DNA from: Hemileia vastatrix
Lineage: Eukaryota; Basidiomycota; Pucciniomycetes; Pucciniales; Zaghouaniaceae
NCBI GenBank assembly: GCA_030280995.1
Contig: JASXTE010000186.1
Span: forward strand, 23,260 to 87,259
Direction of reading: 5' to 3'
DNA: 64,000 nucleotides
The notes beneath the pieces are model-generated. The model searched no databases. It was given only the letters and a program-made list of their open reading frames with translations, and was not told the origin of the DNA. Every line of letters starts with the position of its first letter. Within the stretch, counting starts at the first letter, position 1. The position numbers were made by a program, and so were the translations under genes. This document shows, piece after piece, positions 4,376 through 54,962 of the stretch.

Positions 4376-4446
4376 AAGAACATAGTATAATGGTAGTACG
4401 TTGATCTCCAAAATCATTTATGCGAGTTCGACTCTCGCTGTTCTTG
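4376..4446 (+). tRNA. trnW(cca): tRNA-Trp (CCA)
   Basis: Acceptor AAGAACA/TGTTCTT, anticodon loop CTCCAAA giving CCA rather than the UCA usual in fungal mitochondria that read UGA as Trp, and T arm GCGAG/CTCGC. It fits the exclusive use of TGG for conserved Trp. It implies UGA is stop or unassigned, unless the anticodon is modified. Confidence 0.9.
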
Positions 4447-4730: not shown

Positions 4731-4954
4731 AATTCAATTTCTTATAATTTTATGCATATAGATCAATTATAAATCTATTTTTAATATAGGTACTGGAAAC
4801 ATCTTTATATGTAGACATAACAATTCTATTATTGGATTATTTTCTAATAATCTAATGGGAATATATATAAATTAAAAAAGATATTCAGCCTTTGTTTACT
4901 AGTTAATGTAAAGCACTTTATTTATTTCTATATCCGCCTTCGGCAATATTGTAG

Positions 4955-5206
<252 letters not shown>

Positions 5207-5293
5207 TCTAATTTATGATTACTAACCGCAAATAAAACTGCTTACTAAGTAAAATAGGAGGGATAATAATAATACATAATATGACTATTTTAT

Positions 5294-5299
5294 CCCCCC
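5294..5299 (+). terminator. C6 tract downstream of atp9
   Basis: TATCCCCCCACCAC, 87 bases after the stop; a candidate 3'-end signal. Confidence 0.4.
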
Positions 5300-5505
5300 A
5301 CCACTGATTTCTGCTGAATTACCAAATAAAAGATCGAACTTATCATTGAATTATAAATTCAAAGAAACATAAATTACTTATATATTATTTTATAATATAC
5401 AGATAGTCTATATAGGATATGTATAATCAAATATTTTATCATATACGTTTCGTCTAAAAACGGTCGGCAGATAAATGAAAAAGCATGTAAACCCCATAGA
5501 AAGAA

Positions 5506-5512
5506 GGGGGGG
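5506..5512 (-). terminator. C7 tract downstream of atp6 (minus strand)
   Basis: G7 on plus, so C7 in the atp6 transcript, 8 bases after its stop. Copy B has six. Confidence 0.45.
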
Positions 5513-5520
5513 ATATGCAT

Positions 5521-6297
5521 CTAGTGAAGATCAATTGCATCTTTAAGGTATGAAGCTGTAAGAATACAGAATACATAACTTTGAATAAATGATACAGCGA
5601 TTTCAAGACCAATAAGCCCTACAAATACTGAGAATGGAATTAGTGTAACAACAGCTACGATAAAACTAGATGTGAACATTGGGTATAGAAATCCAGATAG
5701 AATTTTAAGTAGAGTGTGACCACTTACCATATTTGCAAATAGTCGGACTCCTAGAGAAACTGATCGAGCTAGATATGAAATTAGTTCAATTGGTGCTAGT
5801 AGTGGTACTAGTGCTAGAGGTGTTCCTGAAGGTACAAAGAATGAGAAGAAATGCACTTTATGTAGTTGTAGACCTAGAATTGTAACACCAATGAAGATAG
5901 TAACACTTAGACCTAGACTAACTACAATAGAAGTTGCTACAGTAAATCCATAAGGAATATTTCCACTTAGGTTAGCAAATAGAATAAAGAAGAATAGAGA
6001 ATAGATAAATGGTAGATACATTTCGCTAGCAGCCCCGATTTGAGCTTTCACTAGTCCATGTAGTGATGCATAACTACTTTCTAGTGCAATACTCCATCGA
6101 CTAGGAATTAGTTGTTTGTTATTATTAGCTACAAAGTGTAGTCCTAGTGCTAGATATACTGCAATAATTGTATATAGCCCTAGATTTGTTAGAGAAAGAT
6201 TAATATAACCTAGAATAGGCATATTTAGAGCAATTAGACTTGTTACTTCAAATTGTTCTAGAGGTGAATGAATTAGTTGAGAAAACATTGTTGACAT
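5521..6297 (-). CDS. atp6: ATP synthase subunit a
   Basis: Subunit a forms the proton half-channels beside the c-ring of Fo. 258 residues, N-terminus MSTMFSQLIHSPLEQFE. The essential Arg sits in L-G-V-R-L-F-A-N-M (codon CGA), followed by the conserved S-G-H-T-L, and the C-terminal helix has Q-S-Y-V-F. Five to six membrane helices are expected. It is downstream of atp8 on the same strand with a 600-base spacer. Copy B has a different N-terminus (MSTLR... in place of MSTM...) caused by a small insertion. Confidence 0.97.
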   Translation of the reverse strand: MSTMFSQLIHSPLEQFEVTSLIALNMPILGYINLSLTNLGLYTIIAVYLALGLHFVANNNKQLIPSRWSIALESSYASLHGLVKAQIGAASEMYLPFIYSLFFFILFANLSGNIPYGFTVATSIVVSLGLSVTIFIGVTILGLQLHKVHFFSFFVPSGTPLALVPLLAPIELISYLARSVSLGVRLFANMVSGHTLLKILSGFLYPMFTSSFIVAVVTLIPFSVFVGLIGLEIAVSFIQSYVFCILTASYLKDAIDLH

Positions 6298-6899
6298 TTT
6301 TTGTTAATTATTTTTGTACAATACCTCACGGGGATACTGTAGTTCTGTTCTATTACTTTTAAATTAAACTAATTTATACAATTAAATCACTCTAACATTA
6401 AATTAAAAGAGTGTTTTTAAAATACTTTATTTTGAATCTTTTCCTCCGAAGGGTTGCTTCGCTAGAAGGGAAGTTTTTTTATTTTCCAAAATAAAATGAA
6501 CTTGTATAATTAGCTTACTAAGAAACCACATATTTTAAATAAGTAGCTTTCTCTGAAGTGTTAAGATGGTATCAGAACTTTATTTTATCTTTTTATTACT
6601 GAATTATTCTTATTTTGGAGGGGAAAACTCCTTGAATATTATATTTTTGTTTTTGAAATGCTTATTTTTCGTTTAGTAGTAAAATAGTGCTATTTAGCTA
6701 ACCATTTTATTTTACAGGAGTAAAATAAGTCATTTTAAGTGGCTGCCTTTGTAATAAGGTAGAAAACTTTGAATATCTTACAATCATTTATGATTTTCTC
6801 CTTGGAAGAAGAGTGTGCTTGTAAATGTAGCAAAAATTTTTCATGATCGTAGGATCGTGGCGATGTCTGTCTACATGACCTAAAAAATGTCGTAAACGA
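6298..6899. other. Intergenic region atp8-atp6 with hairpins
   Basis: 602 bases without a recognisable gene. A GC-rich repeat lies at 6442-6471. Stem-loop sequences lie at about 6840-6900, just downstream of atp8 on its strand. The rest is A+T-rich. Confidence 0.6.
6442..6471. repeat. GC-rich short repeat pair
   Basis: TCCTCCGAAGGG joined to TTGCTTCGCTAGAAGGG, both dispersed motifs side by side. Confidence 0.7.
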
Positions 6900-6902
6900 C
6901 TA
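6843..6902 (-). other. Hairpin cluster immediately 3' of atp8
   Basis: On the minus strand right after the atp8 stop come GTCGTTTACGAC (4-bp stem, 4-base loop), then an ATGT..ACAT stem and GATCCTACGATC. The block is GC-richer than its surroundings and almost identical in both copies. It could be an RNA processing or stability element; no family is recognised. Confidence 0.4.
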
Positions 6903-7046
6903 TAGTTTAGTGATGTACATTCGTGTTAGAAACAGTTCTGTAAATGCAGGTAGAACATAACGACTCATAATGTAAATCATTACAAATAGTCCTAGAAATG
7001 CAAATGAGATTTGATTTACGAAATAAAATGGAAGTAGTTGAGGCAT
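6900..7046 (-). CDS. atp8: ATP synthase subunit 8
   Basis: Short ORF of 48 residues on the minus strand beginning [12 protein letters not shown], the signature start of fungal Atp8 (MPQLxPFYF.NQ). One membrane helix (about residues 13-35) and a basic tail ending T-R-M-Y-I-T-K-L. Length matches the family (about 48). Atp8 is a peripheral-stalk/Fo subunit of ATP synthase. Leu codons are CTN and Arg codons CGN. It precedes atp6 in the minus-strand block. Confidence 0.95.
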
Positions 7047-7735
7047 TGATTATTTTTATCTGTTTTGCTCTTTATGTATCATTCATCTAATGAATGATTT
7101 TAGTAATGAGCTGTTTCACCGCAATAAATTCTTTACTATAATAGAGACTCGCAGGGATAGATTTTACTGAAATGATATTTCTATCTTAAATATAGAATAT
7201 CTTCTTGATTATTCTATATTTTGTGAACCCTTAATTATATAGAAATAATACATAGAAACAATGAAAAAATTAGCTTCGCATAAGCGATTGCTAGTAAAGG
7301 TTGAAAAATTGATTTTCGTTATTATTTTGCATTGAAATAAAGCTTAAGTATATTAATTGATTAAAGTTAAATTAATCTATTCTTATACGATTTGAATCTA
7401 AGGAAGAATATAAATATCTTGCTTTTCCGAAGGAAAGATTACTGTATAATAAACTTTTATGATTTTTATACTTACTATTAAATTATGTGTATACCTATAT
7501 AACTACATATACACAAATCTCCTCAGTGGTTTAAGGAACTTATGTTACATAATGTAATGTAAGAATATAATAATAATTCATTATTATTATTAGATATTAA
7601 TTTATGGCCCCTTCGGAGAGATTAAAAAAGTATTTTTATTGTATTTATATGGCTTATAATAAATGGGCTACATATAATAAAATAGAAGTAAAGAAGGGGG
7701 GAAAATGAATATTCATTATTTTATGACAAAATTCT
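7047..7735. other. Intergenic region nad1-atp8, no gene seen
   Basis: 689-base A+T-rich spacer. It holds a CCCCTTCGGAGAG element (about 7609-7621) and a site near 7420 where copy A has CTTGCTTTTCCGAAGG but copy B has a full CTTGCTTCGCTAGAAGGGG element. A G6 tract lies at 7696-7701. Confidence 0.6.
7696..7701 (-). terminator. C6 tract downstream of nad1 (minus strand)
   Basis: G6 on plus, 34 bases past the nad1 stop on its strand; five G in copy B. Confidence 0.4.
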
Positions 7736-8725
7736 CTAATAAGGAGAAATGTCAAATGCAATAAGAATACTAGGTACTAGAATAAGTAGAGCAATTGCTA
7801 CTGGAAGAAGTCCTGTCCAACAAAATACCATAAGTGAATCGTACCGCATTCGAGGTAGAGTAGCACGAATCCATACAAAAATAAACATAAATAGAACAGC
7901 TTTAATAGCTAGAGCAATACTTTGAAGATTAATGAATGAATCATTAGTGAATACTTCAGGTAGATTATATCCACCTAGAAATAGAATAGCAGTAAATGTA
8001 GACATTAGTACGATACTTCCATATTCTGCTAGGAAAAAGAATACAAAGATCATTCCAGAGTGTTCTGTCATAAATCCAGCAACTAGTTCTGATTCAGCTT
8101 CAGGAAGATCAAAAGGTGTACGATTTGTTTCAGCTAGAGCTGAAATAAAGAATAGAATAAAAATAGGTAGTAGTGGAATAATATACCATACATTTTGTTG
8201 AGCTTCAATGATTTCAGTAATATTAAATGTACCACATAGTAGAATTACAGATAGTACAGCAGCACTATAAATTAGTTCATAACTAATCATTTGAGCAGTA
8301 GATCGTAGAGATCCTAGGAATGCATATTTAGAGTTAGCAGACCACCCTGCGAATAGGATTCCATAAACTCCAATTGAAGATAGAGCTAGAGAATAAAGAA
8401 TTCCTAGTGAAAAATCAGATAGAGTTAGACCTGGTCCAAATGGGATAACACCCCAACCTAGTAGACTAAAAATTAGTGAAATCATAGGTGCAAAAATGAA
8501 TAGTCCTTTTGTAGATTGTGATGGAATAATTTGTTCTTTTACTACTAGTTTTAGAGCATCTGCAAATGGTTGTAGTACTCCGTAATAACCTACAATGTTC
8601 GGACCAATTCGTCGTTGCATTGAAGCCATTACTTTTCGTTCAAGAATTGTCATAAACGCTACTGCTAGTAGAATAGGGACTAGTACAATTAGAATTTCTA
8701 GAAGATTATATAGAGTTGATAGCAT
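7736..8725 (-). CDS. nad1: NADH dehydrogenase subunit 1
   Basis: Nad1 forms part of the quinone-binding site of complex I. 329 residues from the chosen start MLSTLYNLLEILIVLVP, which matches where fungal Nad1 proteins begin. A longer frame from 8758 adds eleven residues (MTRATHPFLNL) that vary between copies. Conserved blocks seen: E-R-K-V-M-A-S-M-Q-R-R-I-G-P-N, the A-E-T-N-R-T-P-F-D-L-P-E-A-E-S-E-L quinone-site loop, and W-I-R-A-T-L-P-R-M-R-Y-D near the C-terminus. Every Arg in these motifs is CGN. About eight membrane helices. Confidence 0.95.
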   Translation of the reverse strand: MLSTLYNLLEILIVLVPILLAVAFMTILERKVMASMQRRIGPNIVGYYGVLQPFADALKLVVKEQIIPSQSTKGLFIFAPMISLIFSLLGWGVIPFGPGLTLSDFSLGILYSLALSSIGVYGILFAGWSANSKYAFLGSLRSTAQMISYELIYSAAVLSVILLCGTFNITEIIEAQQNVWYIIPLLPIFILFFISALAETNRTPFDLPEAESELVAGFMTEHSGMIFVFFFLAEYGSIVLMSTFTAILFLGGYNLPEVFTNDSFINLQSIALAIKAVLFMFIFVWIRATLPRMRYDSLMVFCWTGLLPVAIALLILVPSILIAFDISPY

Positions 8726-8758
8726 TAAATTTAAAAATGGGTGCGTAGCGCGGGTCAT

Positions 8759-9188
8759 TACACTTCGATTACTTTTACATAATTTCTTGTAAATAAAGAA
8801 CGAAGGTAACGTCCAAAGCTAGAAAAGTACTGATTTCTCTGTTTTATATAAAATAACAATATCAGCAAAGCAAGAGAATTATATGATCGATCTTCCATAG
8901 AAAAATGACGGAGCAAAAAAAAAAATAGAAAATTATTTTCCTTATTAAGCTAAGAATGACCAGACAATGAATTACAACTGTATATTGATTGAAAAATAAT
9001 TTTTTATCTTATTTAAAAGTTTATTTACCCTTCTTATTTACTATAAAGCTGTAAAAGAATTGTAAGGGATTTATTTGAGGGGGGTGCCAATGCAAAATAA
9101 TTTATGAATTAAAAATAAGCCTAAAAAATAGCTTTATTTAATTAGACTACTTTTATAGTGTTTTTGCTTTTAGGAGGAATTTTACTAA
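8759..9188. other. Intergenic region cox2-nad1, no gene seen
   Basis: 430-base A+T-rich spacer with a poly-A run near 8916-8930 (length differs in copy B) and a G6 tract at 9079-9084. No ORF or RNA recognised. Confidence 0.6.
9079..9084 (-). terminator. C6 tract downstream of cox2 (minus strand)
   Basis: G6 on plus, about 105 bases beyond the cox2 stop on its own strand; same in copy B. Confidence 0.4.
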
Positions 9189-9983
9189 CTAAGCTAGAGA
9201 ATCAATCCATGAAAGGTATTTTTCAGGACTTACACTTTCAATAGCAATAGGCATAAATCCATGGTAAACACCACAAATTTCTGAACATTGTCCATAGAAT
9301 ACACCTTCACGTTCAATAAGAACAGATGTTTGGTTTAGTCGTCCTGGTACAGCATCAATTTTAAGTCCTAGACTAGGTACAGCAAAATCATGAATTACAT
9401 CTTGTCCTGTTACGATAAATCGAATATGTGTATCTACAGGTACTACTACTCGGTTATCAACATCAAGTAGTCGTAGTTGACCATCTTCAAGATCAGTTTC
9501 AGGTACCATGTAGGAATCAAATTCAACAGATTCTCCGTCTTCATTAATAAAATCGGAGTATTCATATGACCAGTACCATTGATGACCAGCAGCTTTAATT
9601 GTCATTGACGGTGAAATTACTTCATCCATTAGGTATAGTAGTTTAAAACTAGGGAATGCAATAGCAATTAGAACTAGAGCAGGAGTAATTGTCCAAATTA
9701 GTTCAATAAGTGTACCATGATTAGCATATTTATAAATAATTTGTGATTTAGTAGCACCATTACTTCGAAGAGTTGTGCTTTTAAAATTAAGAATAGTAGA
9801 AGATAGTACCCATAGTACTCCAAAACAAATTACTACAAGATAGAAAAAGATTGAATCATGTAGTTCTGTAATACCTTCTTGTGTTGGTGATGCACCATCT
9901 TGGAATCCAAATTGCCAAGGTTGTGGAGCATCATTATAAATTGGTTGTAGTAGACTACCAAAAAATGAGAATAGAAGATTCAT
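9189..9983 (-). CDS. cox2: Cytochrome c oxidase subunit II
   Basis: Cox2 carries the dinuclear CuA centre that receives electrons from cytochrome c. 264 residues. The N-terminus has [11 protein letters not shown] and two membrane helices (about 40-65, 90-110), followed by the aromatic H-Q-W-Y-W-S-Y-E-Y segment. The CuA ligands lie in D-V-I-H-D-F and in [13 protein letters not shown]. The loop has Val-Tyr where many fungi have Ala-Asn, but the Cys, His and Met ligands are intact. Protein identical in copy B. Confidence 0.97.
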
Positions 9984-10347
9984 TGTAATATCGTATTTTT
10001 AAAAAGAATATCATTGTCAGTAATAATAGATGATTCATCTATTGAATTACTCAATATATTATCTTCTTTATTTTGACTAAAAAATAGTAGTATATAAATA
10101 CTAAATAAAGAAGAAGAGCATTTCTTATTTACGAGAATAGAATTGGCAATTAAGCCTAATAGGCATTATGTATCATATCCTAATTTCTATTAACGCTATA
10201 TGCAGTAATTTTGTTTTTATATTTATTGGTGCCTTGACAGCAAAGTTTAGTCTTCGAAGAAATTCATGAATAGAACTTCATATTGTGTTGTCTATATCTC
10301 TTTTTGAGATTGTTAAGAGAATATTAGTAGCTAATAAGTATGATGAT
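9984..10347. other. Intergenic region trnV-cox2, no gene seen
   Basis: 364 bases, A+T-rich, no recognisable ORF or RNA gene; a few substitutions between copies. Confidence 0.55.
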
Positions 10348-10416
10348 AAGGAATAGAGGAATCGAACCTCTGTATCCAGTGTGTAAGACCGGTGTTAAAC
10401 CACTCAACTAATCCCC
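10348..10416 (-). tRNA. trnV(uac): tRNA-Val (UAC)
   Basis: On the minus strand: acceptor GGGGATT with weakly paired TATTCCT, anticodon stem CCGGT/ACTGG with loop CTTACAC (anticodon UAC), T arm AGAGG/CCTCT. The only tRNA found on the minus strand; it lies downstream of rns in that transcription unit. Confidence 0.87.
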
Positions 10417-10437
10417 TTTTTCAGATTTGTTTTCTAC

Positions 10438-10461
10438 CTCTTGCTTCTAGCGAAGCAAGAG
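10438..10461. repeat. Perfect 10-bp-stem GC hairpin, opposite orientation
   Basis: CTCTTGCTTC, loop TAGC, then GAAGCAAGAG, the exact reverse complement of 4650-4673. At the same place copy B has only TCAGCGAAGCAAGG, so the element is absent or rearranged there. Confidence 0.8.
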
Positions 10462-10630
10462 AAGGGATGAAATGAAGTAAAATTCATATTTTATAGTATT
10501 TATTACTAAATTGTGAATTTCGTGATTATATCCATATAAAAATATAAGATATATATATGTTTAACTATATTAGTTATATAATGTAACAGTACATTATAGA
10601 ATTAATAAAGGGGGTTATATGATTATTATC

Positions 10631-12125
10631 AATCAGCCACAAGTTCCCTTACGGCTACCTTGCTATAACTTACCAAGAGGAACTCTTTCTTACTCCAATA
10701 AATCCTTACTAAACCATATATTAGATAGATTCATGATAGAACATTTTTCTAAGATAGTATTCCATAATTCGTATTGTTCATAAGTTCAGAATGACCCTTA
10801 GTTGATAGACGGTTAGTACCTCCCAAATATAATAGTTCACCGTTGCGTACTTATCAACGATTACTCGGAATTCCTGATTCACGTAGTCGAGTTTCAGACT
10901 ACGATCCTTATATTACTTTATTTACTGGTTAGCTCTATATTATAAAATTAGTAAGCCCTTGGGCTTACTAATATATATTGCATCAGTTTGTTAAGTCCAA
11001 GTAGCACGTCTGTAGCCCATACTCCATAAGGGTCATGAAGGCTTATCGTATTCCCAAAATGCAAGTTATTCTTGACAAATTCTAAGATTTATAACTTAGA
11101 ATAGGGATTGCGTTCGTTGGCGGACTCAACCTGACATCTCACGACACGAACTGCCGACAGCCATGCAACGCCTGTGATTTTAGAAATATCTAGCATAACT
11201 AGAAATAGTCTAAATCATTCAAGGAGAGGTAAGATTTTACGCGGATTATCGTATTAAACAACATGCTCCACTCCGGGTCTTTAGGATGGTCTAATCTTTT
11301 TGCTTTCTGTCTTGAGACTGTACTTACAAGGTGTTACACATACAGCAGTTAGCTTTTTATCTGGTTATATAAATACCAAATAATAAGTGTAAATAGTTTA
11401 CGGTTTGGACTACACGGGTATCTAATCCGTTTTGCTCCCCAAACTTTCATCCCTCAGTGTCAATCTTTACTTGGTTAGCTGCTTTCGCCTTTAGTGTTCT
11501 ACTAGATATCAATGGATATCATCCCTTCTCCTAGCATTCCGCTAACCTCCATTAGATTCTAGTTTCTATATGTTATTGATTTATTTCAATCAATAAGAAA
11601 CAACCTACAGATCCTTAATACCTATTAATTCAATTTAACGTTAGCCCAGTTCGTTTAACCGCGTCTGCTGGCACGAGACTTAGATTGGACTATTAGTAAG
11701 GTAACGTCATTATCCTCCCTTACGACACTCTATAATCTAATATAGATTAGAGTTCTGGTTAGCTGGGTCACTTTTTCAAGCATTGCCCAAGATACTCCTC
11801 TGCTGCGCGTCTATAAGACACTATCGGCTATTCTCAAACCGATTGCGGGAATTGAAGCTTTCGCTCTTTCCTATTCGTTATAGGCTTGGTGTGCCTTTAC
11901 CACACCAACTACCTGCTAAATATAAAGCCAATCCCTAGTCAGGTTATACCTTTTCTATATACTTGTTTCCTAAGTAACTAAGGGTATGTACTTGTTTCTC
12001 CTCGCCTTTAGCCATGATTCCTCAATAAGAAATCATTCGACTTGCATGAGTAAAACTACCAGATAACGTTCAAACTCTGCTAAGATTAAACAGATATTTA
12101 ATTATATACAAAGAGTTTCTACAAT
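10631..12125 (-). rRNA. rns: Small subunit ribosomal RNA
   Basis: The minus strand carries SSU landmarks. Near the 5' end is AGAGTTTGAACGTTATCTGG and GCATGCAAGTCG-like sequence. In the middle, GTGCCAGCAGACGCGG and GGATTAGATACCCGTGTAGTC. Later, the GCATGTTGTTTAATACGATAA region and CTTGTAAGTACAG-type helices. Near the 3' end, AAGGTAGCCGTAAGGGAACTTGTGGCTG. Ends are estimated from these motifs to within some tens of bases. No intron seen. Only one substitution against copy B was noticed inside it, so it is far more conserved than its flanks. Confidence 0.93.
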
Positions 12126-12578
12126 TTTGTTGAAAGTCACCATAAGAACTTTTACATTATGTAAAAACTAAAATAGGATACACAGTAATAGTGATCATTT
12201 TATTCTATTCCTTTATATAAATCGAATGACACTCTATTTTAAATTAGATTCCATCTTAATTAACTTAATACAAAATGAGTTATGCATTGTACTATCTACA
12301 AGGATCTATTGCATCTATTCTATTATAGGAATGAGAATTATGGTAATATCTACATGCTATTTATATTATTTGGTTTAGAATATTTTAGGTTATTTTCCGG
12401 GCAGCCCCCTTCTAACGAAGCAATAAGCAGGCAACTAAAATAGATATGTTAATGTATTTTTTGCGAAGTAGTCCAATGTATATGAACATCAAATAAAATC
12501 GGGTTTAATAATAGTTATTAAGGAAACAATTCTATTTTTATAGTAGATAAATGATCTCTTCGGAGCAAAAAAAAAATA
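12126..12578. promoter_or_regulatory. Divergent intergenic region rns/trnD, candidate promoter region
   Basis: This 453-base stretch separates the 5' end of minus-strand rns from plus-strand trnD-nad4L-nad5. It is the only place in the unit where transcription units diverge, so promoters for both directions are expected. I see no consensus promoter motif. It contains a GC-rich CCCCCTTCTAACGAAGCAA element (about 12405-12423) and CTCTTCGGAGC (about 12557-12567). Confidence 0.4.
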
Positions 12579-12652
12579 GGGAATCTAGCATAATTGGTTA
12601 ATGTCCTAAATTGTCAGTTTAGACGATGCCAGTTCGAATCTGGTGGTTCTCG
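12579..12652 (+). tRNA. trnD(guc): tRNA-Asp (GUC)
   Basis: Acceptor GGGAATC/GGTTCTC with wobble pairs, anticodon stem CTAAA/TTTAG with loop TTGTCAG (anticodon GUC), T arm CCAG/CTGG with TTCGAAT loop. Confidence 0.88.
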
Positions 12653-12734
12653 TAATAAAATCCCTTAAGGAAACTTTCTCACTGTATATTCACCGAAAGG
12701 TAGTGTTTTATATATCTTTTTTTAATAATTTATA

Positions 12735-13034
12735 ATGAATCTATCTGTAATTCTATTTATTATTGGTATTCTAGGATTTGTTCTAAATCGTAAAAATATT
12801 ATTCTTATGCTAATTTCCATTGAAATTATGCTACTAGCGGTAACACTACTAGTACTAGTAAGTTCATATAGTTTCGATGACATTCTAGGTCAAACATATA
12901 GTATTTATATTATTGCTATTGCTGGTGCAGAATCAGCAATTGGACTAGGTATTCTAGTTGCTTACTACCGTCTACGAGGAAATATTTCTCTAGCTGACCC
13001 GATTTCAAATAAATCAGGGATTAGTAATGGATAG
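12735..13034 (+). CDS. nad4L: NADH dehydrogenase subunit 4L
   Basis: Small three-helix membrane subunit of complex I. 99 residues starting [15 protein letters not shown], with the conserved acidic residue of helix 2 in S-I-E-I-M-L and the G-A-E-S-A-I-G-L-G segment of helix 3. nad5 begins 19 bases after its stop. In many fungi these two genes overlap by one base, so here they are slightly separated but probably cotranscribed. Identical in copy B. Confidence 0.96.
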   Translation: MNLSVILFIIGILGFVLNRKNIILMLISIEIMLLAVTLLVLVSSYSFDDILGQTYSIYIIAIAGAESAIGLGILVAYYRLRGNISLADPISNKSGISNG

Positions 13035-13053
13035 ACCGAAAGGAATATATAAT

Positions 13054-15093
13054 ATGTATCTATCACTTCTACTACTTCCCATTTTTGGATCTTGTGTAGC
13101 TGGATTTCTAGGACGTAAAATTGGTGTGACAGGTGCACATATCATCACTTGTTCATGTCTAATTACATCTGCTTTCCTAGCTATTGTAGCATTTTATGAA
13201 GTAGGACTATGTGGATCTCCTGTATCCATTAACATTACAAGTTGGATTGATTCTGAACTAATGGATGTTTCTTGGGGATTTATGTTCGATAGTCTTACTG
13301 TATCTATGCTACTACCTGTACTAGTTGTATCTGCACTAGTCCATATTTTCTCTGTAGATTATATGAGTAGTGATCCTCATAATCAACGATTTTTCTCTTA
13401 TCTATCTATGTTTACATTCTTTATGCTAGTACTAGTAACTGGAGATAACTATCTAATTATGTTTGTAGGTTGGGAAGGAATTGGGATTTCTTCTTATCTT
13501 CTAATTAATTTTTGGTATACACGTATCCAAGCTAATAAAAGTGCTATTAAAGCGCTAGTTGTTAACCGTGTAGGGGATATGTTCCTATCTGTAGGATTTT
13601 TTGCTATGTTCTTTGTATTTGGAAATCTAGATTATTCAACAGTATTTAGTGTAGCACCATTTATTAATGAAACAATCATTACTCTAATTGGTCTACTTCT
13701 ACTTCTAGCTGCTATGGGAAAAAGTGCTCAACTTGGACTTCATACTTGGCTTCCAGATGCTATGGAAGGACCTACTCCTGTTAGTGCTCTAATCCATGCT
13801 GCAACTCTGGTTACAGCTGGAGTTTATCTTCTACTTCGATCAAGCCCTGTAATTGAATATGGACCAACAACTCTAATTGTGATTACATGGGTAGGGGCTC
13901 TAACAGCTTTCTTTGCTGCAAGTACAGGACTACTACAAAATGATCTTAAACGAGTGATTGCTTATTCTACATGTAGTCAAATGGGTTATCTATTTATGGC
14001 ATGTGGTCTTAGTCAATATAATGTTGCTCTATTTCATCTAGTAAACCATGCTTTCTTTAAAGCTCTTCTATTTCTAGCAGCAGGAGCAGTTCTTCATGCT
14101 ACATATGATCAACAAGATCAACGACGTCTAGGTGGTCTTATTGGATTTCTACCATTTACATATACAGCAATTCTTATTGGATCACTAAGTCTAATGGCGC
14201 TACCATGGCTAACAGGATTTTACTCTAAAGATCTTATTCTAGAAGTAGCCTATGGACAATATGAATTCTCTGGACAAGCTGCTTATTGGCTAGGAACTAT
14301 TTCAGCATGTCTAACTGCTTTCTATAGTCTTCGACTTATTTCTCTGACATTTCTTACTTATCCTAATGCTAGCAAATCAGTTTATCTAAATACACACGAT
14401 GCACCTACTATTGTAATGATCCCACTAATTATTCTATCTCTACTAGCTATTTTCTTTGGATATCTAGGACGAGATCTATTTGTTGGTATGGGTTCAGATT
14501 TCCTATCACCTAGTCTATTTATCCATCCTAGTCATATTTCTCTAGTAGAAGCAGAATTTGGACTACCACTCCTTATTAAACTACTTCCTGCTATTGGAAC
14601 TCTAGGAGGAGCTGGACTGGCACTTTATATGTACCATGTACTACCTCTATTCACAATTCAACTAACAAATACATCATTTGGACGAAACCTTTATCGTTTC
14701 TTTAATGGTAAATACTATGTAGATGTAATTTATAATCATTACTTTATTAATGGTGGACTTAATGTGGGATACACAGTAAGTAAAACACTTGATCGAGGTA
14801 TTATTGAACTTATTGGTCCATATGGTCTAAGCACTAGTCTAACAAGAAGTAGTCGAGATATTTCTAAACTAGATACAGGAAACCTTACAAGTTATGCACT
14901 GTATATCATGCTAGGACTAATTGTTATTACTCTAATGCTATTCTCTCCAATTATGCTATCAAATCAAAGAACTTCTATTCTTAGTGGTTCTGATAGTGGA
15001 ATTACAGATCCTCGTCTAGTATTTATTTTCGTAACTGGACTTATTCTACTAACAAGCTACTCTTCGACTCCGAGTTTTACAAATAAAGTATAA
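13054..15093 (+). CDS. nad5: NADH dehydrogenase subunit 5, intronless allele
   Basis: Nad5 is the distal antiporter-like subunit of complex I with the long lateral helix. 679 residues, start [13 protein letters not shown] chosen by family; an ATG at 13027 inside the nad4L end adds nine extra residues. Conserved [31 protein letters not shown] and [11 protein letters not shown] blocks are continuous. The intron site used in copy B (after nucleotide 717, near 13770) is empty here. One position is Thr ACA (14665-14667) in copy A and AGA in copy B. Confidence 0.97.
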   Translation: MYLSLLLLPIFGSCVAGFLGRKIGVTGAHIITCSCLITSAFLAIVAFYEVGLCGSPVSINITSWIDSELMDVSWGFMFDSLTVSMLLPVLVVSALVHIFSVDYMSSDPHNQRFFSYLSMFTFFMLVLVTGDNYLIMFVGWEGIGISSYLLINFWYTRIQANKSAIKALVVNRVGDMFLSVGFFAMFFVFGNLDYSTVFSVAPFINETIITLIGLLLLLAAMGKSAQLGLHTWLPDAMEGPTPVSALIHAATLVTAGVYLLLRSSPVIEYGPTTLIVITWVGALTAFFAASTGLLQNDLKRVIAYSTCSQMGYLFMACGLSQYNVALFHLVNHAFFKALLFLAAGAVLHATYDQQDQRRLGGLIGFLPFTYTAILIGSLSLMALPWLTGFYSKDLILEVAYGQYEFSGQAAYWLGTISACLTAFYSLRLISLTFLTYPNASKSVYLNTHDAPTIVMIPLIILSLLAIFFGYLGRDLFVGMGSDFLSPSLFIHPSHISLVEAEFGLPLLIKLLPAIGTLGGAGLALYMYHVLPLFTIQLTNTSFGRNLYRFFNGKYYVDVIYNHYFINGGLNVGYTVSKTLDRGIIELIGPYGLSTSLTRSSRDISKLDTGNLTSYALYIMLGLIVITLMLFSPIMLSNQRTSILSGSDSGITDPRLVFIFVTGLILLTSYSSTPSFTNKV

Positions 15094-16439: not shown

Positions 16440-16522
16440 GGACAAACTACTATTGGTGAAGTATGGCAACTTCTAATTGCTGAAAAATGATTTTCTTAGG
16501 AGTTCAAATCTCCTTTTGTCCA
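16440..16522 (+). tRNA. trnS(ucu): Ser-type tRNA with anticodon UCU (predicted AGR decoder)
   Basis: Class II tRNA with long variable arm (GAAAA..TTTTC). The acceptor GGACAAA/TTTGTCC is identical to trnS(GCU) at 22369, and the T arm AGGAG/CTCCT is shared with both other tRNA-Ser genes. The anticodon stem GGCAA/TTGCT carries loop CTTCTAA, so the anticodon is UCU, which reads AGA/AGG. A normal tRNA-Arg(UCU) would be class I without this arm. It is therefore read as a duplicated tRNA-Ser(GCU) with changed anticodon, delivering Ser at AGR. Discriminator is A rather than the G of the other two, so charging needs direct proof. Confidence 0.8.
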
Positions 16523-16914: not shown

Positions 16915-18051
16915 ATGAATCTTCTACTTAATCGAGTATCATCTCAAAATATTGGGGGAAAAAACTCACTGACAATTCAAGGAAATCAAATTCTTTCTAA
17001 TAATAGAAGTACACTTGATATTTCTATTAAAAGCACGTCACATAATAAAATGACATTTCTAGTAATGGATAAAAAAAATCTAAGTACTAGAAGAAATCAA
17101 TCATCAGAAAGCAAAGAAGTATTTTGGAATCGTGGAACAACTGCGTGGAAAAACGATAGAGATCGTATGTCTAATTCTATTGCTACTTTTTCTGGGAGTG
17201 GTACAAGAAAATTTTCTTGCTTCGCTAGTAGAAACAAAAGTTATCACTTTACAAACAATACTCTTGGAATGGGACAAACAAGAAAAATGAATGGCCATGA
17301 TAATAATGCTGTGCTACTTCTTAATTCATTTTTTGGTGGGTCTATTCTTACTGGTACTAGTCTTGAAGGATCAAGAACTAGAAAAAATACAGGAAATATT
17401 GCATGTATTATCAGAAAACCATCTTTCAGTCATACAAATCATAAAGTGACAATTCAACTTTTTTATTATACGAGTATCCCTAATGAAGCTTTTTCTACAA
17501 CGAATTCTACAGCAAAAAAAATGAGATCTAATGTATCCTTCCGAGGAAGAGCAAAAGATTCTGTAATGGCACATCCAAACAGAAGATCAATGCTGACTTC
17601 TCTATCTACTTATCTAGCTCAACTTTATAAAAAGGAAGTTTCTCTAGTTATGATTCGTCTGCATTATCCATATCTAGATAGTTATATTCTAGCACAATAT
17701 CTTGCTCATAATGCACCAAATAATACCTTTATTCAATTTCAAGAAACTATTTTCACCAATGCAGCAAAAGCATTTCATAGTTCTGATCTACCTAGTCATA
17801 TTACAGGAATTAAAGTACAAATTTCAGGACGACTGACTACAGAATCTGTAATTCCACGTATCACGGTAAAATCTAGTCTAATTGGATCATTTGGTGGATC
17901 TGATAAAGGGAAATCTACTCTAGCGGAACAAAAAACAAATGCAAGAAATAACTCAGGTAAAATTAGACGAGTTATTGATTACTCTAGATTTACTCATAAA
18001 AATAATCTAGGATCCTTTACTATTAAAGTATGGATTGCATCAAGACAATAA
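16915..18051 (+). CDS. rps3: Mitochondrial ribosomal protein S3
   Basis: Rps3 is the small-subunit ribosomal protein retained in many fungal mitochondria. 378 residues, basic and Ser/Asn-rich. The C-terminal part is recognisable: L-H-Y-P-Y-L-D-S-Y-I-L-A-Q-Y-L-A (about 244-260), G-I-K-V-Q-I-S-G-R-L (about 302-311) and the end K-N-N-L-G-S-F-T-I-K-V-W-I. Conserved Arg there are CGA/CGT, while AGA codons cluster in the Ser-rich variable part (for example around 16999 and 17090). A dispersed GC-rich element sits in frame at 17214-17232 (encoding S-C-F-A-S). Three residue differences or fewer against copy B. Confidence 0.85.
   Translation: MNLLLNRVSSQNIGGKNSLTIQGNQILSNNRSTLDISIKSTSHNKMTFLVMDKKNLSTRRNQSSESKEVFWNRGTTAWKNDRDRMSNSIATFSGSGTRKFSCFASRNKSYHFTNNTLGMGQTRKMNGHDNNAVLLLNSFFGGSILTGTSLEGSRTRKNTGNIACIIRKPSFSHTNHKVTIQLFYYTSIPNEAFSTTNSTAKKMRSNVSFRGRAKDSVMAHPNRRSMLTSLSTYLAQLYKKEVSLVMIRLHYPYLDSYILAQYLAHNAPNNTFIQFQETIFTNAAKAFHSSDLPSHITGIKVQISGRLTTESVIPRITVKSSLIGSFGGSDKGKSTLAEQKTNARNNSGKIRRVIDYSRFTHKNNLGSFTIKVWIASRQ
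17214..17232. repeat. GC-rich element inside rps3 coding sequence
   Basis: TCTTGCTTCGCTAGTAGA matches the dispersed CTTGCTTCGCTAGAAG element and is read in frame. Confidence 0.65.
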
Positions 18052-22368: not shown

Positions 22369-22456
22369 GGACAAACCGCCATTGGAGAAGTTAAGGCGAT
22401 TGCTAATTGTCTGGAAGATTTTAAATTCCTTAGGAGTTCGAATCTCCTTTTGTCCG
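22369..22456 (+). tRNA. trnS(gcu): tRNA-Ser (GCU)
   Basis: Class II tRNA: acceptor GGACAAA/TTTGTCC, anticodon stem GGCGA/TTGTC with loop TTGCTAA (anticodon GCU, for AGY), long variable arm, T arm AGGAG/CTCCT with TTCGAAT, discriminator G. It is the likely parent of the UCU-anticodon paralog at 16440. Confidence 0.9.
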
Positions 22457-22640: not shown

Positions 22641-26752
<4,112 letters not shown>

Positions 26753-27765: not shown

Positions 27766-27849
27766 GGACGTGTGGTAGAGTGGTCTAATACATCTAACTT
27801 GAAATTAGAAGCTTTAATCAAGCCAGGAGTTCGAATCTCCTCGCGTCCG
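27766..27849 (+). tRNA. trnS(uga): tRNA-Ser (UGA)
   Basis: Class II: acceptor GGACGTG/CGCGTCC, anticodon stem CTAAC/ATTAG-like with loop containing UGA, long variable arm, T arm AGGAG/CTCCT, discriminator G. It decodes UCN. Confidence 0.9.
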
Positions 27850-28324
27850 ATTCAAAATTAAGCTACGCGCACTATTATAGGAGTAGAATATATTATTGTT
27901 CTCCGAAAGGCTAATCGTTTTCAGCTTTAGCATAAACGAGATAAGTATTACTAGCGAAGCAAAAAATATATCCCATTTTAGCAATTTACCTATTATTTTC
28001 ATTAAGCTATTTTTTATAAATTTATAACATATATATGTATACAGATTCAGAAATGAACTTTTCTTTGTCTCATATTTCTCCATGTTGAGAAGAAATATCT
28101 TGAAGTAAATAATACTAAATATATATATATAATCAAATCATTACTAATAACTCATTCACAACACTATTATAAAGTAAAATAATGATATAGTCAGTAATAA
28201 GTCACGATGAATCCTTCGTATTTTATTTTAGATTTATTTTCTCCTTGGACCCCTTCTTGCGAAGCAAGAGAAATCACAAAAATAAGTATATAAGCTCTAA
28301 AGGATCGTGCATAAAATTAATAAA
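27850..28324. other. Intergenic region trnS(UGA)-cox3
   Basis: 475 A+T-rich bases with GC-rich elements near 27952 (CTAGCGAAGCAA) and 28252-28271 (CTTCTTGCGAAGCAAGAG). A weak minus-strand open frame here resembles nothing and overlaps the tRNA. Confidence 0.55.
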
Positions 28325-29149
28325 ATGAATTCACTATCACGAACACAATTTCAAGCGCAACCATTTCATCTTGTAACTCCAAGTCCTTGGCCGCTACTAA
28401 CTTCATTTGCACTACTAATTCTAACATCTGCAACTGTAATGTACTTTAATGGATATGCTAACCCATTTGGAGGATCAGGTCTATTTCTAGTAGGAGTAGG
28501 ATTTGCTACAACTCTAGCAGCTATGATTCTATGGTTCCGAGATGTTATTACAGAAGGAACATTTCTAGGAGATCACACATTTCTAGTACAAAAAGGGATT
28601 ACAATGGGAATTGCTCTATTTATTGTAAGTGAAGTATTTTTCTTCGTTTCAGTATTCTGGGCTTTCTTTCATTCAAGTCTAAGTCCTACAGTAGAACTAG
28701 GAGCTCAATGGCCTCCACTAGGAATTGCTACAATTAATCCATTTGAGCTACCTCTACTTAATACTGTGCTTCTACTATCTTCAGGAGCTACAGTAACTTA
28801 TGCACACCATTCTCTAATTGAAGGAAACCGACGAGGTGCTATTTTCGGTACAATTATGACAATTCTTTTTGCTATTCTATTTACAATTTGTCAAGGAATT
28901 GAATATGCAAATGCAGGATTTACAATTGCTGATGGAGTATATGGTTCAACATTCTTCTTTAGTACTGGATTCCATGGAATTCATGTCCTAATTGGTACAG
29001 CGTTTATTGCAGTAGCATTCTTCCGAATGCTAAGCTACCATCTAACTGATATGCATCACGCAGGTTTCGAAGCTTCAATTCTATACTGGCATTTTGTCGA
29101 TGTAGTTTGGCTATTCCTTTTCGTAACTGTATACTGGTGGGGATCATAA
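28325..29149 (+). CDS. cox3: Cytochrome c oxidase subunit III, with recoded 3' end
   Basis: Cox3 is a seven-helix core subunit of complex IV. 274 residues, start MNSLSRTQFQAQPFHLV; an upstream GTG at 28307 is in frame but not needed. Conserved W-P-L-L-T-S, the helix-3 acidic residue in V-S-E-V-F-F-F, H-S-S-L-S-P and the end [20 protein letters not shown] are intact. The last 28 codons (29063-29146) recur as a second version at 30318-30401 that encodes the same residues with about sixteen synonymous differences. The present 3' end therefore appears to have arrived with the adjacent endonuclease gene. Unlike other genes it has no strong C-tract right after its stop. Confidence 0.95.
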   Translation: MNSLSRTQFQAQPFHLVTPSPWPLLTSFALLILTSATVMYFNGYANPFGGSGLFLVGVGFATTLAAMILWFRDVITEGTFLGDHTFLVQKGITMGIALFIVSEVFFFVSVFWAFFHSSLSPTVELGAQWPPLGIATINPFELPLLNTVLLLSSGATVTYAHHSLIEGNRRGAIFGTIMTILFAILFTICQGIEYANAGFTIADGVYGSTFFFSTGFHGIHVLIGTAFIAVAFFRMLSYHLTDMHHAGFEASILYWHFVDVVWLFLFVTVYWWGS

Positions 29150-29173
29150 TCCCGCTTTTTAGTTATATTTATA

Positions 29174-30223
29174 ATGAACTTTAAAGATCTTCTAGTTGAT
29201 ACATACAAACGAAGTGTTACTCTTCGTCAACTAATAAAACCCCCTTTTGTACTTACAAAAGAAATTATGAGAGAAGCTCTACAAATGACAGTAACAGATG
29301 AAATGATGAATCTTTGTAGAGAAATTCATAAAAAAGGGGTTAGTTGAAATGTACCATGGTCAAAATCAGAAGCTTATAATGAATTTAAGCTAGTACATGG
29401 TACAACTCATCGTAATTCTACTAATAAAACAGCAGGTTGTTATCTACTAGATGATGGACAAGGAAATACTTATGTAGGAAAAAGTACACATCTATCTCTC
29501 CGTATTCGTAATCATCTAACAGGTGGACATAAATTTACTAAAATGATTCTTGAAAACCTAAAAGAAAATCAAGCAAAAGTCACTACTTTTCTAGTGACTT
29601 CAGACAATGTAGACACTGCTATTCATTCACTTGATATTACACTAGATGTATTTCTTACTATTCTAGAACAGTATCTAATTCTTTCTCTAATTCCAACTGT
29701 GAATAAACTAATTATTTCTACCACTGGAGGTACTGAAGTATCCTCTCTTTCTAAACTTACAACAGAAGAAAAAATTCAACTGAATCCTAAAACTACACCC
29801 ATTTATTGTTATATGGTAGATTCAGAAGGATATGTACTTCTTCATGTCCTACAATCTCAAAATAGTCTAGGAAAAGCTCTTAATAAAAGAACAGGATATG
29901 CAAAATTCGTTATGGAAGAACAAAATGGTTGGATTCGAGATAAACTTTTTATCACTAAAACACCAATTGCTAACGCTGAAAGAAATCAAATTAGTTTTGA
30001 TCACTTTATCAGTGATGTTAAGTCCGTACTCGATACAAAAGCTTCTCGAAAAGGGCATTCAGTTACGGTAATTGATGCATCTACAGGTATTGAAGTAGGT
30101 ACTTTTCCTAGTATCAGTTATGTAAGTAAACATATTATTAAAGGTGCTAACCGATATGGTCTAAAACAAGCTTGTGATACAGGAAAAGCATACAGCGGAT
30201 ACTATCTTTACACTGCACATTAA
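29174..30223 (+). CDS. Free-standing GIY-YIG homing endonuclease gene behind cox3, in-frame TGA
   Basis: An open frame of 350 codons begins at ATG 29174, 24 bases after cox3, and ends at TAA 30223. It is interrupted only by TGA at codon 58 (29345-29347), in the context V-S-*-N-V-P-W-S. The GIY-YIG region follows: A-G-C-Y-L-L near codon 86 and T-Y-V-G-K-S-T, with L-S-L-R-I-R-N-H and later L-E-Q-Y-L-I-L (Glu) and P-T-V-N-K. No in-frame ATG lies between the TGA and the GIY motif. The enzyme is therefore dead if TGA stops and intact if TGA is Trp. Leu codons are CTN as in the host. It probably inserted into cox3, replacing its 3' end. Confidence 0.8.
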
Positions 30224-30314
30224 AGGATATATCATATATTTATATGCATTTGTCTAAGAGAGTGCATTTACTATTGAATTCATGCTTTTTATCTTCAGAA
30301 TTCATTTTAAATTA

Positions 30315-30404
30315 GTAGGATTTGAAGCATCTATTCTTTATTGGCACTTTGTTGATGTTGTATGGCTATTTCTATTTGTTACAGTTTACTGGTGGGGATC
30401 ATAA
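30315..30404 (+). pseudogene. cox3: Displaced native cox3 3' end
   Basis: Reads [14 protein letters not shown]... to W-W-G-S-stop, identical in protein to the active cox3 end except Val for Ala at its first residue, but differing at about sixteen third positions. It lies 92 bases after the endonuclease ORF and is followed by the C-tract normally found behind genes here. It therefore looks like the original 3' terminus pushed downstream. An alternative is a second exon used by splicing; no group I core was seen between the two. Confidence 0.85.
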
Positions 30405-33850: not shown

Positions 33851-33933
33851 GCGAGCATGTTGAAATTGGTAGCCAAGCTATTCTTAGGAAATAGTGGTCT
33901 TAGACTATGTAGGTTCAAGTCCTACTGTTCGCA
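33851..33933 (+). tRNA. trnL(uag): tRNA-Leu (UAG), the only Leu tRNA found
   Basis: Class II: acceptor GCGAGCA/TGTTCGC, anticodon stem CTATT/AATAG with loop CTTAGGA (anticodon UAG), T arm GTAGG/CCTAC, discriminator A. It decodes CUN. No trnL(UAA) was located in the unit, matching the near absence of TTA/TTG codons. Confidence 0.9.
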
Positions 33934-34114
33934 ATATATCATTCAATTTCTCCGAAAAGTTAATCATAGCGAAATATACTGCTTCTTCTCCGAATCCTTT
34001 TTTATGAAACTTCTTCTCTACTAAAGGGAAGAATGAAAAATTATCTATTCTTTTTATAATTTGGGATTTTGCTGCTTCGAAGGGGAGAAATCGTCTGCAA
34101 TCGCTAATAATTAT

Positions 34115-34188
34115 GCATCTTTAGCTAAATTGGTCAAAGCACCTAACTTCGGATTAGGCGATTGTGGGTTCGAGCCCTACAAGATGCT
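34115..34188 (+). tRNA. trnR(ucg): tRNA-Arg (UCG)
   Basis: Perfect acceptor GCATCTT/AAGATGC, anticodon stem CCTAA/TTAGG with loop CTTCGGA (anticodon UCG), T arm GTGGG/CCCTA-like. The only Arg tRNA found; it reads CGN. Confidence 0.92.
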
Positions 34189-34597: not shown

Positions 34598-36286
34598 ATG
34601 CTTTCAATTGGTCTAATTTGTCTTCTAATTGCCGTACCACTTTTTTCCTACCGTATTACTCCTAGTCTATTTAACCGTATTACTTCTGTAATTCTCATCT
34701 ATTCTGCTCTTCTGGCTTTTAATGGTCTATACATTGAGTCACTAGCTTCCGGAGTAGGTATTTACAGTGGACTATTTCATGTAACTAGTCTATCTCTAGG
34801 TACAGAGTCATTTCTACTATTTGTAGGTGCTCTTATTCTTCTAGGTTGGGCACCATTTACTCAAAATAAACTTAGTTTTGGCCCCTTCGGAGTAGTTTTC
34901 AATTCAAGTAGGGCTTCAAATCAAAACGAACCAAGTTCAACGATGGTACCTACTATTAGTGAATATTCACTAATGATCCTATTTACTACTATTGGTGCTT
35001 CTCTTCTTATGTCGAGTTCAGATCTAGTATCTATGTATCTTTCTATTGAGCTTCAAAGTTTTGCTGTTTATATTCTAGCTACTCTCTACCGAGAATCAGA
35101 ATCATCAACTGCAGCTGGACTTAAGTATTTCCTTCTAGGGGGTCTATCTTCAGCACTTATTCTGCTAGGTACAGCACTAATCTATAGTTATACAGGTCTT
35201 ACACAATTCGAAAGAATTTATACACTAACTGCAGTAACTTCATCATCAGGTGATACAAGTACACTTCCTGTAGTACTAGGTCTAGTGCTAATTGGAGTAG
35301 GTTTTCTATTTAAAGTAGCAGCTGCTCCATTCCATAATTGGGCACCTGATGTTTATGATGGTGTACCAACTATTGTAACATCATGGCTAACTACTATGCC
35401 AAAAATTTCTATTTTTGTATTTCTTCTAGAACTACAAACAGGTCTAGAAGGTAGCGTAGAGTCACTATCTATTATTCATTCTTGGCTATCTACTGATGGA
35501 TCGGATGGATCAATCAATGTATGGAAAAATCTTCTTCTAGTAACTTCTCTACTATCTCTAGTAGTAGGAACTGTAGTAGGTCTATCTCAATATCGTATTA
35601 AACGTCTACTAGCTTTCTCAACAATTAGTCACGTAGGATTTCTTCTACTTGCTCTAGCAATTAATACTCAAGAATCTATTGAATCTTTCCTATTTTATAT
35701 TCTTCAATATAGTCTAACAAATGTAAACACATTCCTTATTCTACTAGCATTTGGATACATGATTCACGGAAGAATTCTTAGTGGAACCCTTCGGAGCCGA
35801 GGAGGAAAAAGAAGTAATGTTTCCCCTTCGGAGAGAGATATTCAATTTATCGATGATCTAAAAGGTCAATTCAAACAAAACCCACTTCTAGCTATTAGTC
35901 TAGCACTTTGTCTATTTTCAATGGCAGGAATTCCTCCACTAATTGGTTTTTTTGCTAAACAAATGGTTCTATATTCATCTACTCATGGTGGATATTATTT
36001 CCTATCTATTGTTGCTATTCTTGTAAGTGTGATTAGTGCATCTTATTATCTAAAAATTATTCGAGTAATTTACTTCGAAAAACTAACAAATAAAGATGAT
36101 CAAGAAAATACCTTTAATACAACTACACCTCTACAAGACGAAGGCTTTGCCTCTACTCAATCAATTACAAATGTTCATAGTATGCTTATTGCAACACTTA
36201 CAATGGTTATTACTCTATTTGTTCTACAACCATCTATCCTACTAAATAGCTGTCACCTTCTGGCCCTATCACTATTTTACTACTAA
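34598..36286 (+). CDS. nad2: NADH dehydrogenase subunit 2, with repeat-derived inserts
   Basis: Antiporter-like membrane subunit of complex I. 562 residues from ATG 34598 ([16 protein letters not shown]); an upstream TTG-initiated extension is ignored because TTG is otherwise unused. Conserved [23 protein letters not shown] and [13 protein letters not shown] are present. Two low-conservation inserts contain the dispersed CCCTTCGGAG element: about 34881-34940 (G-P-F-G-V-V) and about 35787-35840 (T-L-R-S-R... and S-P-S-E-R). Codon 206 (35213-35215) is AGA in F-E-x-I-Y, where relatives have Ser, Asn or Asp. The stop overlaps the nad3 start by one base (TAATG). Confidence 0.94.
34881..34894. repeat. 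GC-rich element inside nad2 (first)
   Basis: GCCCCTTCGGAGTAG, in frame, encoding part of G-P-F-G-V. Confidence 0.6.
35787..35836. repeat. Two GC-rich elements inside nad2
   Basis: ACCCTTCGGAGCC and CCCCTTCGGAGAGAG, 35 bases apart and read in the same frame-compatible way, within a hydrophilic insert. Confidence 0.62.
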
Positions 36287-40561: not shown

Positions 40562-41251
40562 ATGAACAACTTTCTACTCGATTTTCTAGCTCTTGGAGCT
40601 ATCCTTAGTGGTATTCTTGTAATTACAAGAAAAAACCCTGTAATTTCAGTACTATTTCTAATTTCTGTATTTGTAAATGTAGCAGGTTATCTAGTTCTTC
40701 TAGGTGTAGGATTTATTGGTATTTCTTATCTTATTGTTTATGTAGGGGCAATTGCAATCCTATTTCTATTTGTTGTTATGATGCTAAATCTACAACTTGC
40801 TGAACTAAGTGCAGTAGGATCCGAATATACTCAAAATCTACCTCTGGGTGCAATTGTTGGATCTCTGTTCCTTATTGAACTAATTTCGATTCTACCATCA
40901 AGTTTCAAAGGTACTCCATCTTCTTCATTTAATCTTAGAGGAGATGCTAGACTATCTTCTGTAATTCCATCAGGAAGTGCTTCAAGAGATATTCAACTTG
41001 GATTCCTAAACTGGATGAATTCCTTTATCCTAGGATCTGAATCTGAAGCATCAAGAGATTCATATCTTGATATTCATCAAGCTTTTAACCCTATGTCAGC
41101 AGATACTTACTTTGCTAATTTCCTACAAATTCAATCTATTGGACAAAACCTTTATACATATGGTGCTCTATGGCTTCTACTAACTAGTTTTATTCTACTA
41201 CTAGCTATGGTAGGACCAATTACTCTAAGTATGAGAAAATCAAATAATTAA
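40562..41251 (+). CDS. nad6: NADH dehydrogenase subunit 6, copy B
   Basis: 229 residues as in copy A. AGA at the Ser-conserved codon 23 (40628-40630) is kept. In the variable loop, codons 40946-40951 read GCT AGA where copy A reads GCA GGA, a Gly to AGA change. A C5 tract lies at 41294-41298. Confidence 0.95.
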   Translation: MNNFLLDFLALGAILSGILVITRKNPVISVLFLISVFVNVAGYLVLLGVGFIGISYLIVYVGAIAILFLFVVMMLNLQLAELSAVGSEYTQNLPLGAIVGSLFLIELISILPSSFKGTPSSSFNLRGDARLSSVIPSGSASRDIQLGFLNWMNSFILGSESEASRDSYLDIHQAFNPMSADTYFANFLQIQSIGQNLYTYGALWLLLTSFILLLAMVGPITLSMRKSNN

Positions 41252-54879: not shown

Positions 54880-54962
54880 GGACAAACTACTATTGGTGAA
54901 GTATGGCAACTTCTAATTGCTGAAAAATGATTTTCTTAGGAGTTCAAATCTCCTTTTGTCCA
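54880..54962 (+). tRNA. trnS(ucu): Ser-type tRNA with anticodon UCU, copy B
   Basis: Identical to 16440-16522, including the UCU anticodon loop CTTCTAA and long variable arm, although the DNA on both sides differs between copies. Confidence 0.8.

Follow-up and report, generated by a model that had tools for sequence, protein, structure and literature searches.

Reading of AGA and AGG (AGR) as serine is known from the mitochondria of invertebrates, echinoderms and flatworms (NCBI tables 5, 9 and 14), in which a single trnS usually decodes all AGN codons. To our knowledge, AGR = Ser has so far been an animal mitochondrial trait, and no report of it in fungi was found by title or abstract start in the literature searched. 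The stretch of 64,000 nucleotides analyzed here (the window) resembles the animal codes in that, by sequence and fold, AGA and AGG would be read by a mitochondrial tRNA-Ser, while trnR(UCU) was not found; it differs from them in its fungal host and in a second, dedicated class II tRNA with anticodon UCU beside an intact trnS(GCU). Tables 5 and 9 also read UGA as tryptophan, and table 5 reads AUA as methionine, whereas the 4,727 exon codons of the window include no TGA, ATA or UUR, and the only trnW found carries CCA. In yeasts, mitochondrial CUN codons have been reassigned, and some yeasts read nuclear CUG as serine. These cases likewise concern fungal sense codons reassigned by tRNAs of changed identity, but the codons are different, and CUN is the only leucine box in the window exons.

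In the mitochondria of marsupiomonadalean green algae, AGR is described as alanine with a UCU tRNA that is considered a modified trnR(ucu), and AUA is rare (PMC12574857). This case parallels the window in an organellar sense-to-sense change of AGR, a UCU tRNA and the rarity of AUA, but its tRNA is a presumed derivative of trnR(ucu) instead of a trnS(GCU) paralogue, and the residue is alanine instead of serine. In the mitochondrion of the window, AGA and AGG very probably mean serine (probability of about 0.92).

The window is a mitochondrial genome from a fungus near Ustilaginomycotina, consisting of one unit of ~37.3 kb and most of a second copy, with 32.6% G+C and the usual fungal mitochondrial genes, rRNAs and group I introns. 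Two blocks, 98.7% and 99.8% identical, repeat bases 1-25562 at 37302-64000, and an intron in nad5 makes the second copy about 1.1 kb longer. The two copies (1-37301 and 37302-64000) are tandem, slightly diverged units and represent either two mitotypes or an assembly concatemer. The additional intron in the nad5 of copy 2 (about 51068-52208) belongs to group I and carries an endonuclease-like ORF, and the nad4 of copy 1 is split into two reading frames. In the cox3 region (28322-30404), a GIY-YIG ORF (29174-30223, with a single in-frame TGA) comes after cox3, and after this ORF the 3' end of cox3 is repeated (30315-30404, 73/90 identical), which looks as if a mobile endonuclease gene had inserted here and the tail of cox3 had been duplicated with it. 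Two Nad2 matches are named as fungi, Macalpinomyces bursus (75%; Ustilaginales) and Parajaminaea phylloscopi (64%; Microstromatales), both from Ustilaginomycotina, and two further matches with bacterial names look like misfiled records. In the Nad2 tree, the window and proteins P0040-P0043 form one clade with a support of 100/99. The features discussed below are collected in Table 1.

Table 1. Positions of the tRNAs and AGR-containing genes in the window.
Feature	Position	Strand	Remarks
Class II tRNA, anticodon UCU, A73; proposed tRNA-Ser for AGA/AGG	16440..16522	+	ARAGORN, BLAST, fold
UCU tRNA, second mitochondrial repeat	54880..54962	+	Identical 83/83; ARAGORN, sequence comparison
trnS(GCU), G73; presumed parent of the UCU tRNA	22369..22456	+	Identical copy at 60807-60894; BLAST
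trnS(UGA), G73	27766..27850	+	
trnR(UCG), for CGN	34115..34188	+	Sole class I Arg tRNA found
trnL(UAG)	33851..33934	+	Sole Leu tRNA found
trnW(CCA)	4376..4446	+	
rps3 (VAR1 family), 18 AGA	16915..18051	+	AGA codon 167 at 17413 in near-invariant Ser column, 36/38
nad2	34598..36286	+	AGA at 35213 and 35771
cox1 intron 1 GIY-YIG ORF, 7 AGA and 2 AGG	22914..23897	+	
cox1 intron 2 LAGLIDADG ORF	24401..25486	+	AGA at 24470, 24755, 24809, 25052
nad6 (copy 2), 6 AGA, 0 CGN	40562..41251	+	
nad5 (copy 1), 2 AGA	13054..15093	+	

Each unit encodes 23 tRNAs, 22 of them detected by ARAGORN, together with trnS(GCU), which ARAGORN missed and BLAST recovered; two have the anticodon CAU, one of which could be trnI(CAU). 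The minimum-free-energy fold of the UCU tRNA is a full cloverleaf with stems of 7 bp (acceptor), 4 bp (D), 5 bp (anticodon), 5 bp (variable arm) and 5 bp (T) and the anticodon loop CUUCUAA. Of the 22 other tRNAs in the unit, trnS(GCU) matches it best, with a score of 46.5 against 14.0 for the next and a maximum of 10.5 over 1000 shuffles, and the two share 69 identities in 91 alignment columns. The first-pass annotation had credited them with the same acceptor stem and T arm; the 7-bp acceptor stem is indeed identical, whereas the T arm differs in one loop base. Their anticodons differ at wobble position 34 alone, and, judged by sequence, the UCU tRNA is clearly a paralogue of trnS(GCU), in line with the duplication and anticodon change that the annotation had proposed. 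The discriminator base is A73 in the UCU tRNA, as in trnL(UAG), and G73 in trnS(GCU) and trnS(UGA). Published work describes G73 as strongly determining recognition by some SerRS and A73 as a leucine determinant, and A73 casts some doubt on the predicted serine charging of the UCU tRNA.

A class I trnR(UCU), reported as missing at the outset, was found neither by ARAGORN with default and intron settings nor, in bases 1-38000, among Rfam matches to E 5 or by a cloverleaf scan that picked up 16 of the 22 known anticodons, including UCU and GCU, but no new ones. Similarly, trnL(UAA) was not found by ARAGORN (default and intron settings) or by the cloverleaf scan, and the trnL(UAA) of L045, a basidiomycete-like contig described below, gave no match longer than 11 bases as a BLAST query. 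Neither the UCU tRNA nor trnS(GCU) is detected by the Rfam tRNA model, whose silence is therefore insufficient against a class II tRNA such as trnL(UAA). A UCA form of trnW was not found either. The metazoan mitochondrial mode of ARAGORN returned four more 'tct' candidates and one 'taa', and its 50% threshold returned many more among the matches listed; both sets were put aside, as they were unsupported by any other method.

The exon count (nad4 and nad6 taken from copy 2 and the rest from copy 1, with approximate exon borders in cox1 and cob) gave zero for each of TTA, TTG, ATA and TGA, along with 478 CTA, 163 CTT, 372 ATT, 69 TGG and 95 CGN; the stops were TAA (6) and TAG (8). Leucine is written with CTN only, despite the AT-rich genome. 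The four missing codons were also absent from the copy-2 genes checked, and atp8 (6900-7046, minus strand), which lies outside the exon count, has two CGN and no TTR, ATA, TGA or AGR. One TTA, three ATA and one TGA occur in the 1,326 codons of four intron or free-standing ORFs, and the nad5-intron ORF present in copy 2 only has four ATA and no TTR in 250 codons. UUR, UGA and AUA are hence unused in the exons, and no tRNA reading UUR or UGA was found.

AGR makes up 34 of the exon codons (33 AGA and one AGG), 18 of them in rps3, and is nearly absent from the core respiratory genes, with none in the copy-1 exons of atp6, atp9, cob, cox1-3, nad1 and nad4L. Near its start, atp6 of copy 2 carries an inserted CGT AGG pair, both codons of which are missing from copy 1. 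Between the repeats, compared without nad4 and atp6 (lengths differ), AGA stands in place of GGA (Gly) once in nad6 and of ACA (Thr) once in nad5, which would be gentle changes if AGA is serine.

The meaning of AGR was scored on deep alignments of three proteins, namely, Rps3 (all 39 homologues), Nad2 (54 of 120 listed) and the cox1 intron-1 GIY-YIG ORF (73 of 120 listed). Besides the window, near relatives were excluded: one, two or four rows of Rps3 depending on the analysis (four in the 20-site scoring), four rows of Nad2 and three of the intron-1 ORF. In the first scoring of 26 sites, AGA gave +6.7 for Ser and -10.0 for Arg, and AGG gave +2.1 and -3.4, respectively. This scoring called 50 of 57 codons as in table 4; the seven exceptions were AGA and AGG, together with five codons represented by 1-5 sites. 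The log-odds of AGR over 20 sites were +11.2 for Ser, +1.2 for Thr, -1.1 for Asn, -10.4 for Arg and -34.5 for Leu; at an occupancy of 0.8 (17 sites), Ser reached +10.6, Arg -8.2 and Leu -30.9, and at 0.9 (14 sites), +11.7, -4.6 and -24.2, respectively. In 2000 site bootstraps per set, Ser exceeded Arg in 99.8-99.9% and was the top of all residues in 87-99%, while Thr was on top in 10-13% (20- and 17-site sets). Sites favoring Ser over Arg numbered 16/20 for AGR, 2/32 for CGN and 113/126 for Ser codons. The AGR pattern differed from that of CGN (Fisher p 6e-8 to 3e-7), and no difference from ordinary Ser codons was detectable (p 0.09 to 0.25). Columns dominated by Arg had been named in advance as the sign against a serine reading; in these three proteins, the outcome went against Arg, and Ser was the best residue over 20, 17 and 14 sites.

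Most AGR sites lie at weakly conserved positions, and the clearest columns, apart from that of Rps3 in Table 1, are found in nad2 at AGA 35213 and in the intron-1 ORF at AGG 23505 (codon 274; Ser 60/70) and AGA 23721 (codon 346; Ser 60/68, Arg 7). The four AGA codons listed by the first-pass annotation as standing at serine positions are all present, with unequal outcomes. In nad2, AGA 35213 (codon 206 from the nad2 start, 222 in ORF numbering) falls in a strong Ser column, with Ser in 38/50 homologues, Gly in 11 and Ala in one, although Gly or Gln occupies this position in the best solved chains. Codon 23 of nad6 (40628) faces Ser in the best solved chain but Ala in four plant-type chains and in control locus L005. 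In intron 2, the solved endonucleases shown have Ser, Ser, Asn and His at 24755 and Lys, Ile, Cys and once Arg at 24809. Of the further sites, nad2 AGA 35771 (codon 408) is Ser in 27/49 homologues and Tyr in the solved chains, and nad6 AGA 41234 (248 in ORF numbering) is Lys or His in the solved chains, among which we take 7zm7 to be from Chaetomium and 7aqq from Arabidopsis. The residues in such pairwise PDB alignments (nad6, nad2, nad5 and intron 2) were mixed, and the likelihood does not include them. Conserved arginines are written CGN, as the annotation had maintained, including Rps3 248, 306 and 315 and all columns with at least 80% Arg in Nad2 (4) and the intron-1 ORF (12). In the three alignments with their controls, AGA and AGG stand at conserved Ser and off conserved Arg positions, as in AGR = Ser codes.

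Several AGA codons nevertheless fall in basic columns, and these are an argument for AGR having remained arginine, decoded either by a nuclear tRNA-Arg(UCU) imported into the mitochondrion or by the UCU tRNA charged by ArgRS, with the Ser-column sites being real Ser-to-Arg substitutions. The columns are Rps3 358 (Lys 23, Arg 9, Ser 6), Rps3 377 (Arg 14, Asn 6), Rps3 224 (Arg 9, Ser 8, Lys 6) and Nad2 421 (Lys 19), and the nad5 codon at 14845 (607 in ORF numbering), which is Lys in the best solved chain and Arg in plant-type chains, counts against Ser, as do nad6 41234 and intron-2 site 24809 with the residues given above. Rps3 is an RNA-binding protein, in which arginine is expected. If AGR is serine, these sites become serine, the residue that six homologues have at Rps3 358. 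Retention of arginine is nevertheless highly improbable in view of its negative score, the likeness of AGR sites to Ser codons and not to CGN, the strictly CGN spelling of the conserved arginines and the class II structure of a tRNA derived from trnS; under the serine reading, no imported tRNA would be decoding AGR.

The same A73 that connects the UCU tRNA with trnL(UAG) would be compatible with a third residue, most plausibly Leu, given a class II tRNA with this base, or Thr, which came out on top in the minority of bootstraps given above. This is the least probable of the alternatives, since Leu has the lowest of the scores given and Thr stays far below Ser, the UCU tRNA scores 6.0 against trnL(UAG) compared with 46.5 against trnS(GCU), and Thr tRNAs are class I. 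A73 might also make the tRNA a weak serine acceptor, so that AGR would be ambiguous or poorly decoded and tolerated at loose positions only, for which the scarcity of AGR and its concentration in rps3 also speak. With AGA and AGG at near-invariant Ser positions of Rps3 and the intron-1 ORF, and a UCU tRNA kept identical in both repeats, we consider poor decoding improbable too, though by a small degree the least so of the three.

Control loci were collected by scans with cox1 (L001-L004), Nad2 (genome contigs, L005-L084, best 80 of 83) and the intron-1 ORF (L085-L087), and codons were tallied in 11 of the 87 (L001, L003-L008, L045 and L085-L087, with L087 lacking aligned codons). In eight of the nine tallied loci that use AGA, Arg was the commonest window residue opposite it, with a total of 90/123, i.e., L005 24/34, L006 29/35, L004 7/11, L003 6/9, L001 4/9 (a locus that may not be mitochondrial), L008 2/3, L085 12/16 and L086 6/6. 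By column, Arg was the commonest residue at 27 of 33 AGA sites (L005 4/6, L006 3/4, L008 2/3, L085 9/9, L086 5/6 and L087 4/5), compared with none of 12 AGR columns of the window (Nad2 0/4 and intron-1 ORF 0/8).

The ninth locus, L007 (FNAW01000012.1, filed as Blastococcus), is a fungal-type mitochondrial contig with adjacent nad2-nad3 and nad4L-nad5 (regions 4819-9250 and 10001-14873). Its AGA is not Arg: opposite 44 AGA codons, the window has Ala 12, Phe 5, Ser 4 and Thr 4, among others, and in its profile Ala is the best of 20 residues yet below background (-11.6; Thr -17.8, Ser -17.9). This shows that non-Arg AGA exists outside the lineage of the window, and AGA = Ala in L007 may be taken as only a lead. 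L045 (PAQV01000020.1, filed as a Rhodobacteraceae MAG) is a basidiomycete-like mitochondrial contig whose cox1 is 73-89% identical to that of the window; it has no AGR and no ATA in 1,622 aligned codons, with 85 TTA and a trnL(UAA). An AGR-free mitochondrial state therefore exists, but L045 lies outside the clade of the window, on a long branch of unsure place in the Nad2 tree, and it serves as an analogy and not as an ancestor.

Among the proteins, P0042, from the Nad2 clade of the window, shows table-code Arg at two Nad2 columns with Ser fractions of 0.84 and 0.64; similarly, P0003 has it at the Rps3 167 column and P0160 at columns 274 and 346 of the intron-1 ORF. At columns with at least 60% Ser, Arg also occurs in two more rows of Rps3, two more of Nad2 and ten more distant rows of the intron ORF. 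These protein records suggest that the code of the window may be common to the lineage of P0042, with the caveat that Arg in a Ser column is not a specific sign. Scans of viral contigs with nad5, intron 2, the Nad2 alignment and a T-arm/acceptor DNA pattern revealed no relatives, and the exact T-arm/acceptor pattern occurred in none of the 87 loci.

The scarcity of AGR, the UCU tRNA and the emptied TTR, ATA and TGA codons fit codon loss followed by capture, with L045 providing an AGR-free state outside the clade. AGR and its own trnR(UCU) would have disappeared in the way that TTR, ATA and TGA seem to have been vacated; trnS(GCU) would then have been duplicated, and a change of the wobble base from G34 to U34 in the duplicate would have produced a tRNA-Ser(UCU) reading AGR. 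Serine identity depends on the long variable arm rather than the anticodon, so that the duplicate would have kept it and could have captured the empty codons, after which AGR would have reappeared, mostly at variable positions.

It is fairly likely that a fungal clade near Ustilaginomycotina has its own mitochondrial code, in which AGR became serine by way of a duplicated trnS with a single change at the wobble base and in which none of UUA, UUG, AUA and UGA is assigned, and that L007 may have moved AGA to alanine independently. The proteins of this lineage would be mistranslated in databases, in which P0001 (Rps3) and P0040 (Nad2) show Arg at sites read here as Ser. If a fungal case arose when a duplicated tRNA-Ser changed a single base of its anticodon, the mechanism of the reassignment would be simple, and the codon-capture model would become directly testable, given the further emptied codons of this genome. 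If this is true, the mitochondrion would show codon loss and capture in progress in nature, one vacated pair having been filled again and four codons having stayed empty.
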